From NCBI GenBank assembly GCA_016870915.1, contig VFZY01000053.1, positions 1-32,355 on the forward strand: 32,355 nt of DNA, read 5' to 3'. This DNA comes from Acidobacteriota bacterium (GTDB lineage: Bacteria; Acidobacteriota; Terriglobia; Bryobacterales; Bryobacteraceae). The translations under genes and the position numbers were made by a program. Below are positions 19,832-32,355 of the stretch, piece after piece. Each line of letters opens with the position of its first letter. The stretch's first letter is position 1. The notes beneath the pieces were generated by a model, which saw only the letters and a program-made list of their open reading frames with translations, made no database searches and was not told the origin of the DNA.

Positions 19832-21130
19832 CTAGAGGTACGACTCCGGGAATAAGGCCTTGTGTTCAGCAGCTGCGTCGGCTGGGGCGGCGTTGGCATC
19901 CACCCACGTGGTAGGACCGGAGCCGGGCGCATTGGGCCAGCCCCCTGGCGGTGCGGCAACGCCGGCTGGCGCGGGTGGAATGGTGACCGACACCACGCCT
20001 GTTGCGGTCATGTGCAGAACCTGCCGGAAACTCCACTCCCAGTACCCCAGGATATTCGGGAGGGCACCTGGGCAGAACTCGACCACCCAGGTGCGAAAGA
20101 GATCGTTCACGGTACGATACGTACAAACGGGCGCGCCATTCGGAATCCCCCCGTTGGGGAAATCGGAGAATACCCAGGTTCCACCGCCCACATTGATGTT
20201 AGGTCCGCCTCCCGGTGGGTCGGCGCGGGGCTGTCCCGCCACTGGCAGCAAATCCACCCAGGCCCCGTTGACCAGAAGGTATCTCCTAGGAGTCGCGATT
20301 GTCTGGAAGCGAATCGTGCACTCGGGAGGGACGCCAGTCACGTAGATGATCTTCAGGTACCCGTAAAAGTCAACCGCAGGGTTTCCTCCGGCTGCCGGGA
20401 CCACGAGGTTGCCCGCTTCCGGACCCGGACTATCGAGGGCCGTAGTAGTTCGGCCTCCCACGACTACCGGTTTAGCCGGGACCAGCAGCTTCGGCGGAGG
20501 AAGCTGCGGCACACCTTCAGGACGGAACTGCGCGACCGCGAAATTGAGCTTCAATCCCAGGATGCGCAGGTTGAATTTTACCTTCGTGACCGGCACGACC
20601 ACACCACGAATATTGTGCCGTTGATTGTCTCGCCAGACGATCTCCAGATTGGGGAAACTAGGAAGCACGAAAGGGCCGGCCCCGGCTTTCAAGTTACGCA
20701 GCGCCAAGAAGCGCATTCGTTTTATGGAGGCAAGGGAGATTTTGTGATAGAGAGCTATCGTGGACTGGGCATCGCGGATGTGCCGATCGAATTGGCGAAC
20801 CGCTTGCCTGACTGCGGTTACTGGGGCGACATTCGCGATCTCCAGCCGGAACAACTTCTTCGCCGCCTGCAATTCATTGTTGGCGAGCTGCCGCCGGCGG
20901 CCAGCTTCGGCGGTGCACTCCCGAGCCGCACGATCAATACCCCGCTGGTTGCCGCGATCGATCAGCGGACCGACTGTTTCATCGAAGGCAGCCGCATAGC
21001 GGACCATCACGCCGGTGGCCTGCTGAATGTCGCCGATTCCCCTCGCTAAGGCTCTTGCGGCGCTTGGTTCCTCCCCTCGAAAGGGAGCCTCATCACCGCT
21101 CTGGTTATCTTGCCTTGGACGTTTCGCCAT
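19832..21130 (-). CDS. Protein of unknown function, 432 residues
   Basis: I do not recognise this protein. AAGGAG lies 8 bases before the ATG at 21130, and the frame is long and compositionally protein-like, so it is a real gene. There is no signal peptide. Residues 1-35 are polar and low-complexity; about 25-160 is helical and probably coiled coil (ALARGIGDIQQATGVMVRYA; CTAEAGRRRQLANNELQAAK; VRQAVRQFDRHIRDAQSTIA). From about 160 onward it is beta- and Pro/Gly-rich (VVVPVTKVKFNLRILGLKLN; FYGYLKIIYVTGVPPECTIR; GGGTWVFSDFPNGG), ending in an Ala/Pro-rich tail. Codon choice looks less GC3-biased than in the neighbours, and the gene stands alone between oppositely read genes, both hints of transfer. 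The helical-then-beta layout recalls structural or secreted effector proteins, but that is only a shape resemblance. Confidence 0.78.
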   Translation of the reverse strand: MAKRPRQDNQSGDEAPFRGEEPSAARALARGIGDIQQATGVMVRYAAAFDETVGPLIDRGNQRGIDRAARECTAEAGRRRQLANNELQAAKKLFRLEIANVAPVTAVRQAVRQFDRHIRDAQSTIALYHKISLASIKRMRFLALRNLKAGAGPFVLPSFPNLEIVWRDNQRHNIRGVVVPVTKVKFNLRILGLKLNFAVAQFRPEGVPQLPPPKLLVPAKPVVVGGRTTTALDSPGPEAGNLVVPAAGGNPAVDFYGYLKIIYVTGVPPECTIRFQTIATPRRYLLVNGAWVDLLPVAGQPRADPPGGGPNINVGGGTWVFSDFPNGGIPNGAPVCTYRTVNDLFRTWVVEFCPGALPNILGYWEWSFRQVLHMTATGVVSVTIPPAPAGVAAPPGGWPNAPGSGPTTWVDANAAPADAAAEHKALFPESYL

Positions 21131-21851
21131 TTCAGTGCTCCTTCACTTCAATCTCGAGGACATCTAGCTCGATTTATGAGTGCGGGATCTCCGCGAATCA
21201 GCAAGTGCAGTGGTTGACCGGGATTTCCGTTTTACCTCCCGGCTCGCAAACAGGATACACCCACTCGCCCTTCTTATCAAGGCTCTTCTTACTCGGGAGG
21301 CGTGTTCGTCTCGGGGCCCCCAGGAACACGTGCAAGACGGAGCCCCGGCGCAGGTGTTCCTTGCAACCTGGCGGCCTGCGCCGGGCCCTTTGCGCTTTTG
21401 ACCGGCGGCAAGACTCGAAATCCGGGAAACTCAGTCTTTTCAGCGCCTGCCACCGACAGTTCTCCCACCCTCACCTCCGAGGTCGCCTGATTTCGCCCTT
21501 CCGATTCGCCTCTCCTTATCCGCCCCCCATTGCCAGCGCTTCGATCCGCCGTATCATGCTCCCGAACAGTGTCGTGTCAGATGGGTTCCGGCCGGTATCA
21601 GCCAGCAGCCCGGACATGCTTGACCAATCTGCCGCCGGCCTTCACAGCTTTTGTTGCAGGCTGGTCAGCGACGAGTTCCCGATCTTCTTCGGCAACACCC
21701 GGCCCGGAGGGCGCCGCACTATCAAGGTAGTGACTTCGCGCCATTCGCAGATGCGCGAGTTGCGGACTCAGAGTGGCGGCCGTCCGTGACGGACTCTGTA
21801 CGCGTTCAATCCGTCGCCCGCTCACCTGTCCGCTACAATAGAGCCTGCGAC
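21131..21851 (+). other. About 720 bases without a convincing gene
   Basis: No reading frame here has a good start, ribosome-binding site and protein-like composition together. Short minus-strand frames exist: 33 codons at 21516-21617 (MSGLLADTGRNPSD, then TLFGSMIRRIEALAMGGG), 61 codons at 21289-21474, and a frame ending at 21198 with GEWVYPVCEPGGKTEIPVNH and a final CTC. None is supported well enough to call. The repeat at 21214-21264 shared with the right edge suggests that part of the gap is the decayed end of a mobile element. TACAAT at 21834-21839 may be the -10 box of the oxidase gene. Confidence 0.6.
21214..21264 (+). repeat. 51-base repeat, copy A (possible mobile-element end)
   Basis: Matches 32222-32273 in the same orientation. 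Shared blocks in order are GACCGGGATTTCC, TTTT, CTCCCGG, CAG, ATACACC and AC, about 36 identical bases with two small length differences. Copy A lies in an intergenic gap 84 bases upstream of the unknown minus-strand gene. Confidence 0.6.
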
Positions 21852-29331: not shown

Positions 29332-32300
29332 ATGCTGCTGAGCAATCGGTTCTTTGCTCGTACTCTTCTGGCGGCCGCCACTCTGGCGGGGCCCGTCACC
29401 CAGCAACTCATCCACGGACAGGCGTTTCAGGGATCGATCGTAGGCGCTATCACGGATGCATCGGCTGCCGCGATGACCGGGGCCACGGTAACGCTCATCA
29501 ATCTGGGTACACAGGAGCGCCGGCAGGCGCAGACGGCCCAGGACGGGTTCTACCAATTCCTCAACCTGGTGCCGGGCGCTTATCGAATCACCGTGGAGAT
29601 GCAAGGGTTCAAGCGTGCGGTGCGCGAACCCATCGAGGTGAGTGTATCGAGCGCGATGCGCGCCGACGTGGCGATGGAAATCGGCGACGTCAATCAGTCC
29701 GTGGAAGTGGAAGCGCTGGCGCCACTGCTGAACACCGAAAGTTCCAACCTGAGCCAGACCGTCTCCTCGCGCGCGGTGCAGGATCTGCCAGTGAATGGCC
29801 GGAACATTCTGAACCTGATGGCGTTGGTGCCCGGAGTGGTCCCTCAGGGCAACACGGAGGGCAACGCGCTGACGGGCAAGAACGTGTTCGCGGCCGGCAA
29901 TTACCAGGTGGGGGGCGGCATGGCGAACCAGGCCGCCTCGTACTTCGATGGGGTTCCGATGAATGCGGGCATCGGCAACCTGACGATCCTTGCGCCGAGC
30001 CCGGACGTGGTCTCCGACTTCCGCGTTCAGACCAACAGCAACAACGCGGAGTTTGGCCGTTATTCCGGCGGCGTGCTCAACCTTGGCTCGAAGTCCGGCA
30101 CCAACCAGTTCCACGGTTCCGTGTACGAGTTCTTTCGCAACCGCGTGCTCAACGCGAGCAACTTCTTCGCCAACGCCAACCGCCTTGCCAAGCCGGCGTT
30201 TTCCCAGAACCAGTTCGGCGGCACGTTCGGAGGCCCGGTGCTGAAAGACCGGCTCTTCTTCTTCGCCGGCTACGAAGGTTACCGCCAGAGGCAGGGCGCG
30301 ACGTTTCTCACCACGGTTCCCCAACCACGGATGAACAGCGGCGATTTCTCCGAGTTCCGGAACGCAAGTGGAGCCCTGATTCCTGTCTTTGATCCACTCA
30401 CCCAGTGCGGCGCCCATAGCAATCCGGCCTGCGCCGCGGGCACCGGTCCGCAACGGTCTCAGTTTCCGGGCAACGTCATCCCGGCGAGCCGCATCAACCC
30501 GGTTTCGAGGCGCTTGAACGAATTTCCGCTGCACGCGCCGCCGAACCTGCCGGGCGCCGCGTTCACCAACCTTTTCAACTACAGCAAGAACATCAGCTCC
30601 GGCGGCGACAACGACCAGTACAACGGGCGCGTGGACTATGCCATCAACGAGCGCATGCGGCTGTTCGGCCGCTTCACCCGGTGGGGCAGCGCCAACTCGC
30701 CCGCCATCCTCTTCGACAATGGCGTGTTTGGTGGTGACCCGTTTTCGCCCGAGACCTTTACCACCAAACAAGCGGTGGCCGGATTCACGTGGCTGATCCG
30801 CCCGACCATGATCCTGGACCTTCGCGCCTCCTACGGCCGCTGGAACTATGAGCGGATCTCCCCGTTCCGGGGGATCGACATGACCGAGAGATTCGGCTTC
30901 CCGTCCTACTTCCGGACGCTGCCGCAATTGCGCCAGGTGGCGGGCGAGACCGGCTATCCGCAGATCACTCTCAGCACCTACACCCACACCAACCCCGGAC
31001 CGTTCAACGGCCATCTGTTTAGCGTTGACAATACCTATGTGCTGTTGCCGAGTTTCACCTGGGTGAATGGCCGGCACCAATGGAAGTTCGGCGCCGACCT
31101 GCGCAACTTCCGCAACAACTACTATCAGCTGGCCCCCGGCGGCGCCTTCCAGTTCGACAACGTGTTCACGTCCCAGAACGCCCTGAACCCCGGCGCCACC
31201 GGAAACGCGCTGGCCTCGTTCCTGTTGGGGATGGGCCAAGGCGGCAACATGCTGGTGCTGGGGCTGCCCTATCAGTCGCTGAGCTATCAGGGCTACTACG
31301 CGCAGGATACCTGGCAGTTCAACTCCAAGTTGACGGTGACGCTGGGGCTGCGGTGGGAGATCCCGGGCGTTTTCAAGGAGCGGTATGACCGCACGACATC
31401 GCTGAATCCGGTGGCCGAGAATCCGGCCACGCGAGGCATCCTGGTGAATGGCCGGCCGGTGGTGGGAAGGCTGGACCGCGTCAACACGCCGGATCACTCC
31501 ATTCGCGGCAACAAGGATGAAAGCTACCGGCTGTTTGCGCCCCGCCTGGGCATTGCGTACCGGATCCGTCCGCAGACTGTCTTCCGGGCCGGCGCGGGCA
31601 TGTACTATCTTCCGACGAACCTGCAGTTCAACGAGGGCCCTTACGGCAACGCCCTGAACGCCTACAGCACGCCCTGGCTGGTGAGCATCGACCGATCGGT
31701 GACACCGCTCAATACGTTGAGTGACCCGTTCCCGGGCGGCTTTGTGCCCTCGCTCGGCTCGCAGCCTGACTTTCAGCGGCTGCTGTTGGGCCAGTCACCC
31801 GCGGCGGCTCTGCGCAACTCGCCGCGTCCCTATCAGGGGCAATGGAACGCCGCGATTCAGCACCAGGCGCCGGGCGACATCGCCGTGGAGCTCGCCTACG
31901 CGGCTTCCCGCGGCGTGCATCTGCCACGCAATGACTACAACATGAACGCGATTCAGGACGAGTTCCTCTCCCTGGGCAGCCGGTTGAACAGCCAGGTGCC
32001 GAATCCGTTTTTCGGGCTGGTGAACGTGGGGGCGCTGTCGCAACGGACGGTGACCCAAGGCCAACTGCTGCTCCGGTATCCGCAGTACACGGGGTTCATT
32101 CAGCGCACGTCCTACCTGGGCAACACGACCTATCATTCGCTGCAGATGAAGGTGGAACGCCGCTTCGGCGCCGGTGGAAGCCTGCTGGGCGCATACACGT
32201 TCTCGAAACTGCTCACCGATATGGACCGGGATTTCCATTTTGGGTCTCCCGGACCCCGACAGTATACACCAACGCCTCACTCCCGTGCCGGATTTGATCA

Positions 32301-32355
32301 GAATCCCCTTTCCGAGGGCGGGCCAGTGCCTGCGGATGGCTTCTTTCGACCATCG
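29332..32355 (+). CDS. TonB-dependent receptor with carboxypeptidase-regulatory-like domain; runs off right edge and probably interrupted near 32222
   Basis: The frame is open from ATG 29332 to the window edge (1008 codons). The N-terminus is a long signal peptide (ending about residue 30, HGQA), followed by a CarboxypepD_reg-like domain (about 33-120: FQGSIVGAITDASAAAMTGA; TAQDGFYQFLNLVPGAYRIT). The plug has LPVNGRNILNLMALVPGVVP and NAEFGRYSGGVLNLGSKSGT with NQFHGSVYEFFRN, all standard for Oar-like receptors. The barrel proceeds normally to YHSLQMKVERRFGAGGSLLG and AYTFSKLLTDMD, where the family normally continues with further strands. From residue 965 (32224) the sequence no longer resembles a receptor (RDFHFGSPGPRQYTPTP) although the frame stays open. 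That point coincides with the start of repeat copy B. The gene is probably an insertion-disrupted receptor, unless this is an unusual variant. Confidence 0.88.
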   Translation, partial: MLLSNRFFARTLLAAATLAGPVTQQLIHGQAFQGSIVGAITDASAAAMTGATVTLINLGTQERRQAQTAQDGFYQFLNLVPGAYRITVEMQGFKRAVREPIEVSVSSAMRADVAMEIGDVNQSVEVEALAPLLNTESSNLSQTVSSRAVQDLPVNGRNILNLMALVPGVVPQGNTEGNALTGKNVFAAGNYQVGGGMANQAASYFDGVPMNAGIGNLTILAPSPDVVSDFRVQTNSNNAEFGRYSGGVLNLGSKSGTNQFHGSVYEFFRNRVLNASNFFANANRLAKPAFSQNQFGGTFGGPVLKDRLFFFAGYEGYRQRQGATFLTTVPQPRMNSGDFSEFRNASGALIPVFDPLTQCGAHSNPACAAGTGPQRSQFPGNVIPASRINPVSRRLNEFPLHAPPNLPGAAFTNLFNYSKNISSGGDNDQYNGRVDYAINERMRLFGRFTRWGSANSPAILFDNGVFGGDPFSPETFTTKQAVAGFTWLIRPTMILDLRASYGRWNYERISPFRGIDMTERFGFPSYFRTLPQLRQVAGETGYPQITLSTYTHTNPGPFNGHLFSVDNTYVLLPSFTWVNGRHQWKFGADLRNFRNNYYQLAPGGAFQFDNVFTSQNALNPGATGNALASFLLGMGQGGNMLVLGLPYQSLSYQGYYAQDTWQFNSKLTVTLGLRWEIPGVFKERYDRTTSLNPVAENPATRGILVNGRPVVGRLDRVNTPDHSIRGNKDESYRLFAPRLGIAYRIRPQTVFRAGAGMYYLPTNLQFNEGPYGNALNAYSTPWLVSIDRSVTPLNTLSDPFPGGFVPSLGSQPDFQRLLLGQSPAAALRNSPRPYQGQWNAAIQHQAPGDIAVELAYAASRGVHLPRNDYNMNAIQDEFLSLGSRLNSQVPNPFFGLVNVGALSQRTVTQGQLLLRYPQYTGFIQRTSYLGNTTYHSLQMKVERRFGAGGSLLGAYTFSKLLTDMDRDFHFGSPGPRQYTPTPHSRAGFDQNPLSEGGPVPADGFFRPS
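32222..32355. mobile_element. Possible insertion-element end, with repeat copy B at 32222-32273
   Basis: Positions 32222-32273 match 21214-21264 in the same orientation (shared blocks GACCGGGATTTCC, TTTT, CTCCCGG, CAG, ATACACC, AC). The start coincides with loss of receptor homology, as expected at an insertion boundary. On the minus strand TATACT lies at 32263-32268, possibly an element promoter pointing outward. No transposase is recognisable in the 134 bases visible, and the family is unknown. Confidence 0.5.

Follow-up and report, generated by a model that had tools for sequence, protein, structure and literature searches.

A TonB-dependent receptor gene of an acidobacterial genome interrupted by a high-copy IS1380-family element, copies of which recur upstream of other receptor genes

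The TonB-dependent receptor gene at the right-hand edge of the window (the whole stretch of DNA analysed, 32355 bp, which is the entire contig C53 of G000, a 6.6-Mb genome assembled into 367 contigs) was almost certainly broken by the transposition of an insertion sequence (IS) of about 1.7 kb, belonging to the IS1380 family, between codons 964 and 965, with duplication of the target ATGGA. The insertion severs the last roughly 220 β-barrel residues from the receptor, which is very probably inactive as a result. In itself, this is an ordinary gene disruption. Insertion of the element accounts for the truncated receptor and for much of the breakage of the genome into 367 pieces, and the part that deserves follow-up is the placement of IS copies before receptor genes. 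The features of the window are collected in Table 1.

Table 1. Features of the window that bear on the interrupted receptor and on the IS.
Feature	Position	Strand	Remarks
TonB-dependent receptor gene, 5' part (CarboxypepD_reg + OMP_b-brl_4)	29332..32225	+	PF25183 3.5e-153, PF13620 1.8e-17
Target-site duplication ATGGA, 5 bp	32221..32225	.	Repeated on C46, immediately past the other IS end
IS1380-family IS, transposase-3' end, non-coding	32226..32355	-	Estimated length of the whole element, ~1.7 kb
Imperfect terminal inverted repeat CCGGGATTTCCATTTTGGGTC; other end CCCACATTTCCGTTTTGAGCC	32226..32246	.	
TATACT, candidate -10 of a putative outward promoter, read towards the receptor	32261..32266	-	No -35 found
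Truncated and decayed relic of an IS1380 element related to this IS, with the same end and a remnant of the transposase C-terminus	21218..21626	-	
432-aa ORF	19832..21130	-	ATG 87 bp from the relic end in the outward direction, GAAGGAG upstream

The reading frame that starts at 29332 is open up to the contig end, and its homology to receptors stops at residue 965, the gene before the insertion comprising 964 whole codons and two bases. The two closest homologues, one in a Candidatus Sulfopaludibacter MAG (L115, 84% identity in the best segment, covering query residues 29-965) and the other in MAG K_DeepCast_65m (L116, 82% identity, query residues 11-965), both run on past this residue with barrel sequence that is absent from the window. 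An earlier note on this DNA had stated that receptor homology stops where a repeated sequence begins, which is what the divergence of both homologues after residue 965 bears out, and it would have been contradicted by intact receptors with the window's residues after position 964; L115 and L116 continue differently. The note had placed the change at 32222-32224, close to the boundary but slightly off, since the receptor extends exactly to 32225 and the IS runs from 32226 off the contig end. The difference arose because the copy at 21218 is by coincidence preceded by GA as well, the last two bases of the duplication; GACCGGGATTTCC is found at two places in the window and no more, 21216 and 32224.

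The missing receptor C-terminus, which the note had proposed to look for, lies on contig C46 directly past the other end of the IS. In a search with the C-terminus of the homologue, C46:125-790 was found to match L115 with 78% identity (E 1.4e-119), while the runner-up among the 153 matches to the receptor C-terminus, a number that reflects the very large TonB-receptor family of G000, reaches 46%. The start of C46 carries, in this order, the second IS end (106-127), ATGGA (128-132) and GAGCCTCACCGAG, with which the receptor 3' part of about 220 codons begins, the junction reading GAAATGTGGG/ATGGA/GAGCCTC. When the flanks are rejoined, they give LTDMESLTEWLN, which matches the intact homologues L115 and L116, and removal of the IS and of one ATGGA yields the frame KLLTDMESLTEWLN, the same as in both homologues. 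That the copy in the gap between C53 and C46 is complete, and how it transposed, we infer.

Two other explanations of the odd C-terminal reading, a natural receptor variant or a chimera generated by the assembler at a repeat, are highly improbable. They could draw on the fact that the contig ends 130 bp past the sequence change, but the repeat keeps the same boundary next to some hundred different flanks, with duplications of 5 bp, and the intact homologues continue in the same way as C46. ATGGA is found once in each list of flanks (left, i.e. next to the transposase-3' end, and right), which pairs the window with C46. A duplication length of 5 bp for this IS is supported by 92 left flanks (the distinct ones among 97 matches, with at most one mismatch and at least 30 bp of flank) and 118 right flanks (out of 127 matches, with at most two mismatches). 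The terminal 5-mer of 70/92 left flanks is shared with some right flank (against 42 on average and 55 at most in 2000 trials with shuffled columns) and 63 one-to-one pairings can be made (shuffled mean 34, maximum 46), while six-base matches drop to background (7; control mean 4.2, maximum 8). The target motif of the insertions is roughly YTNAR. A 4-bp duplication would lie at the lower end of the 4-5 bp range of the IS1380 family. On the assumption of such a length, contig C93, which has TGGA behind the other IS end, gave one exact match as a partner for the receptor, and it was discarded because the gene there is exosortase-like: an exosortase-like frame (L085) stands right behind the IS end, with an ATG 5 bp from the IS.

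The element itself is well supported as a new IS1380-family member at high copy number. The last 130 bases of the window have 40 scored matches in the genome, with 97-100% identity and at or near contig ends. The left end (first 21 bases, up to three mismatches) was found 97 times in the genome and the other end 127 times, the reversed control pattern giving 0 in each case, and among the matches listed almost all IS ends lie at contig ends. The search of the genome with the repeat end that the note had suggested therefore revealed further copies, the lack of which would have spoken against it, and the element is in a massive expansion, its copies numbering about 100-130 as judged by the 97 and 127 matches to its ends. 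Since an assembler cannot bridge identical copies, the contig stops inside the IS, and since such copies collapse in assembly, as expected, the interior of the element is present in the contigs only as short pieces, no end-to-end copy being read in G000.

The note's reading of a probable insertion element is also supported by three further things that it had proposed to look for, a transposase (of the IS1380 family), a second, inverted end and a target duplication (of 5 bp). Contigs that extend up to 342 bp into the left end encode the C-terminus of a transposase on the minus strand, starting about 235 bp into the IS end and hence past the end of the window. A second set of contig ends starts with CCCACATTTCCGTTTTGAGCC and encodes the N-terminus of a transposase matching PF13701; CCCACATTTCCGTTTTGAGCC and CCGGGATTTCCATTTTGGGTC form an imperfect inverted match, as the two ends of an IS1380 element do. 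The 97-aa N-terminal fragment of the element's own transposase is 89% identical to a relative in G017 (another genus of the same family) and scores 76 bits on NF033539, which is that of a fragment and under the whole-protein cut-off. The relative in G017 is complete, with a single 443-aa transposase ORF between its ends that reaches 373 bits on the NCBIfam IS1380 model NF033539 (cut-off 180). The enzyme is therefore an IS1380-type DDE transposase, by NF033539 for the G017 relative and by PF13701 for the N-terminus of the element's own protein. A search of Rfam with two loci of 1.5-1.8 kb holding both IS ends gave no match up to E 0.5. Two distant PF13701-type transposases are also encoded in G000, on C73 (L025) and C315 (L026), in open frames of 437 and 503 aa that share 26% and 29% of their residues with the transposase of G017; more than one lineage of this type is therefore present.

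The second copy in the window, at 21218, has the same orientation as the one in the receptor gene and likewise has its interior to the right, as the note had it. That the resemblance exceeds chance, also claimed there, has been upheld: the 130-bp end scores 35 against the rest of the window, compared with a mean of 26.7 and a maximum of 32 in 60 shuffles, and when the end is taken from contig C242, where 342 bp of it are available, its score against 21151-21750 is 159 (maximum of 300 shuffles, 74). On the minus strand, the transposase C-terminus also has a weak match to 21519-21701, with 47% identity, an E of 4.7e-4 and one stop. The homology is real, and the copy is an old, decayed and truncated relic. 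The idea that 21218 starts a complete second element was rejected, a FAD-linked oxidase lying beyond it and no right IS end being found within 3 kb inward.

Among known elements, the IS of the window is most readily compared with IS1247, an IS1380-family member of 1672 bp with an inverted repeat of 16/13 and a 5-bp duplication according to PMC3281130. The transposase family, the size (here an estimate of ~1.7 kb), the short imperfect inverted repeats and the 5-bp duplication are alike. In contrast to IS1247, the element has a very high copy number and its host differs, its relatives being found in Acidobacteriota MAGs. Near-identical mobile-element genes are also numerous in the acidobacterial genome of Candidatus Solibacter usitatus Ellin6076 (PMC3174227), but the 123 mobile-element genes counted there are of all kinds, whereas about 100-130 copies of one IS are present here. 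Two further IS1380-family elements, ISEcp1 and ISPme1, have outward promoters, ISPme1 mobilises and enhances the DNA beside its 3' end, and a remnant of ISEcp1 of about 200 bp has been fixed as a promoter before a gene (PMC9330008). Unlike captured modules of the ISPme1 type, the copy in the window is bordered by ATGGA immediately at each of its IS ends (a point tested individually for this site only) and is therefore a simple insertion, so that one-ended capture of adjacent DNA as a transposable module was set aside. No report of the window IS, or of the placement described below, was found among the papers listed in searches of open-licence literature.

The post-transposase end of the element recurrently faces downstream gene starts, as in ISEcp1 and ISPme1, and the neighbours here are often TonB receptors. 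At 13/92 sites in G000, a TonB-receptor start follows the transposase-3' end within 150 bp (distances 5-108 bp; for example L060, L062, L071, L209, L227 and L288). The same is true of 3/118 sites for the other end and of 17/3000 background positions with matched 5-mers, a background that is slightly low because 1.6 kb at contig ends was excluded and these hold IS-flanked receptor starts. The two ends differ (Fisher p 0.0028), and they also do so when receptors are counted by profile and by eye (15/92 left versus 6/118 right, p 0.0099), a count in which two left sites called as interrupted genes (L183 and L263) are receptor-facing only by eye, both being kept as inside-gene in the count of gene interiors. 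Genes were called with our own hexamer method trained on G000 and applied also to G009 and the other relatives. The receptors at 18 receptor-facing sites are dissimilar (median mutual identity 33%, highest 50%) and the sites have 16 different 5-mers, which argues for largely independent insertions; a unique duplication partner was found at 7 of them.

It is quite possible, if short of probable, that the transposase-3' end has an outward promoter, or lets transposase transcription read through, and that copies upstream of TonB-receptor genes were kept for the expression of these genes, in which case the insertion in the window would be a by-product of the same expansion. The enrichment and the direction bias just described are in line with this, as are the independence of the sites and the pattern in G009, where left-end matches are 75-92% identical and where 2/23 left flanks and 0/30 right flanks face receptor starts (23 of 25 left-end and 30 of 34 right-end matches having been classified). 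However, the bias is based on 16-21 sites, with a plain binomial p of 0.02 for 13 versus 3, non-receptor gene starts display no bias in direction (13/92 versus 18/118), and for 2/18 receptor-facing sites the right flanks collected contain no duplication partner, several others being ambiguous.

The main rival is that the IS prefers the DNA before receptor genes for its structure, transcription or AT content, the direction bias being due to chance or to a polar target, a reading that we hold to be somewhat less likely. It would account for the avoidance of gene interiors (99/210 flanks inside genes versus 2238/3000 in the background), for the preference for YTNAR and for the mild enrichment of right ends before receptors (3/118, p 0.03). 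On the other hand, a model of the 29-bp target motif expects receptor-facing sites at 0.26% (left) and 0.28% (right), under 0.3% for either end, and the local motif therefore explains neither the enrichment nor its direction, while a palindromic target would not yield a difference between left and right. A third possibility, selection for the loss of receptors (those used by phages, for instance) behind the insertions in and near them, is very unlikely. A receptor was indeed destroyed in the window, but the number of insertions within receptor genes does not depart from the background (23/210, compared with the 377/3000 background positions of G000 that receptor genes contain, p 0.59) although these genes are the larger target, and this count largely refutes it.

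The geometry is like that of ISEcp1 and ISPme1, with ~235 bp of non-coding DNA separating the transposase from the IS end that faces receptor starts. TATACT, the candidate -10, was found to be the top over-represented hexamer upstream of genes (19/259 regions; shuffled mean 2.1, maximum 5), in a set from which 81 regions near IS ends had been dropped and which retained some IS-derived hexamers. It is also present on the reverse strand in 8/259 regions, and in only 1/17 of the regions upstream of receptors. TAnnnT is kept in most, not all, of the related left ends compared by eye. Scans of both IS ends with the sigma-70 consensus gave no promoter, an acceptable -35/-10 pair being absent from each, which counts against an outward promoter. 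The sequence support is thus thin (TATACT and a negative sigma-70 scan), and the promoter, unlike those published for ISEcp1 and ISPme1, is a candidate inferred from placement statistics and TATACT. The more specific proposal that one IS, 3' end first and upstream of at least 13 dissimilar TonB-receptor genes, gives them an outward promoter, and that relics such as the one at 21218 are domesticated promoters, is tentative and somewhat doubtful. If IS-borne promoters are real, numerous members of one receptor gene family in an environmental bacterium would have been recruited by a single mobile element, and a set of nutrient receptors would be under IS-borne control; in the IS1380 promoter cases met in print, those of ISEcp1 and ISPme1, what is affected is resistance genes or neighbouring DNA that was captured. 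IS1380 elements have also been described as more frequent than expected between co-directed genes and rarer than expected next to MFS transporters (PMC9208149).

Isolated ends are compatible with the retention of promoter-bearing ends. An examination that covered left ends revealed ten (in G000, G003, G009 and G025) that have no right end over about 2.5-3 kb in the inward direction, and 6/10 face a gene start at most 150 bp away, two of these genes being receptors, both in G009. Such ends, that at 21218 among them, are comparable to the ISEcp1 remnant of ~200 bp. The relic of the window is counted among the six by the ATG at 87 bp of the 432-aa ORF, a possible beneficiary of the relic end, for which the hexamer gene caller favoured a start at 21007 over the ATG on the 21130 side; neither Pfam (E 0.001) nor NCBIfam (E 0.01) gave a match to the ORF. 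L376 has its right end, unlike the ten isolated left ends. In G009 and G025, isolated IS ends at most 150 bp before gene starts, two of them those of TonB receptors, are found at L367, L368, L369, L373 and L374.
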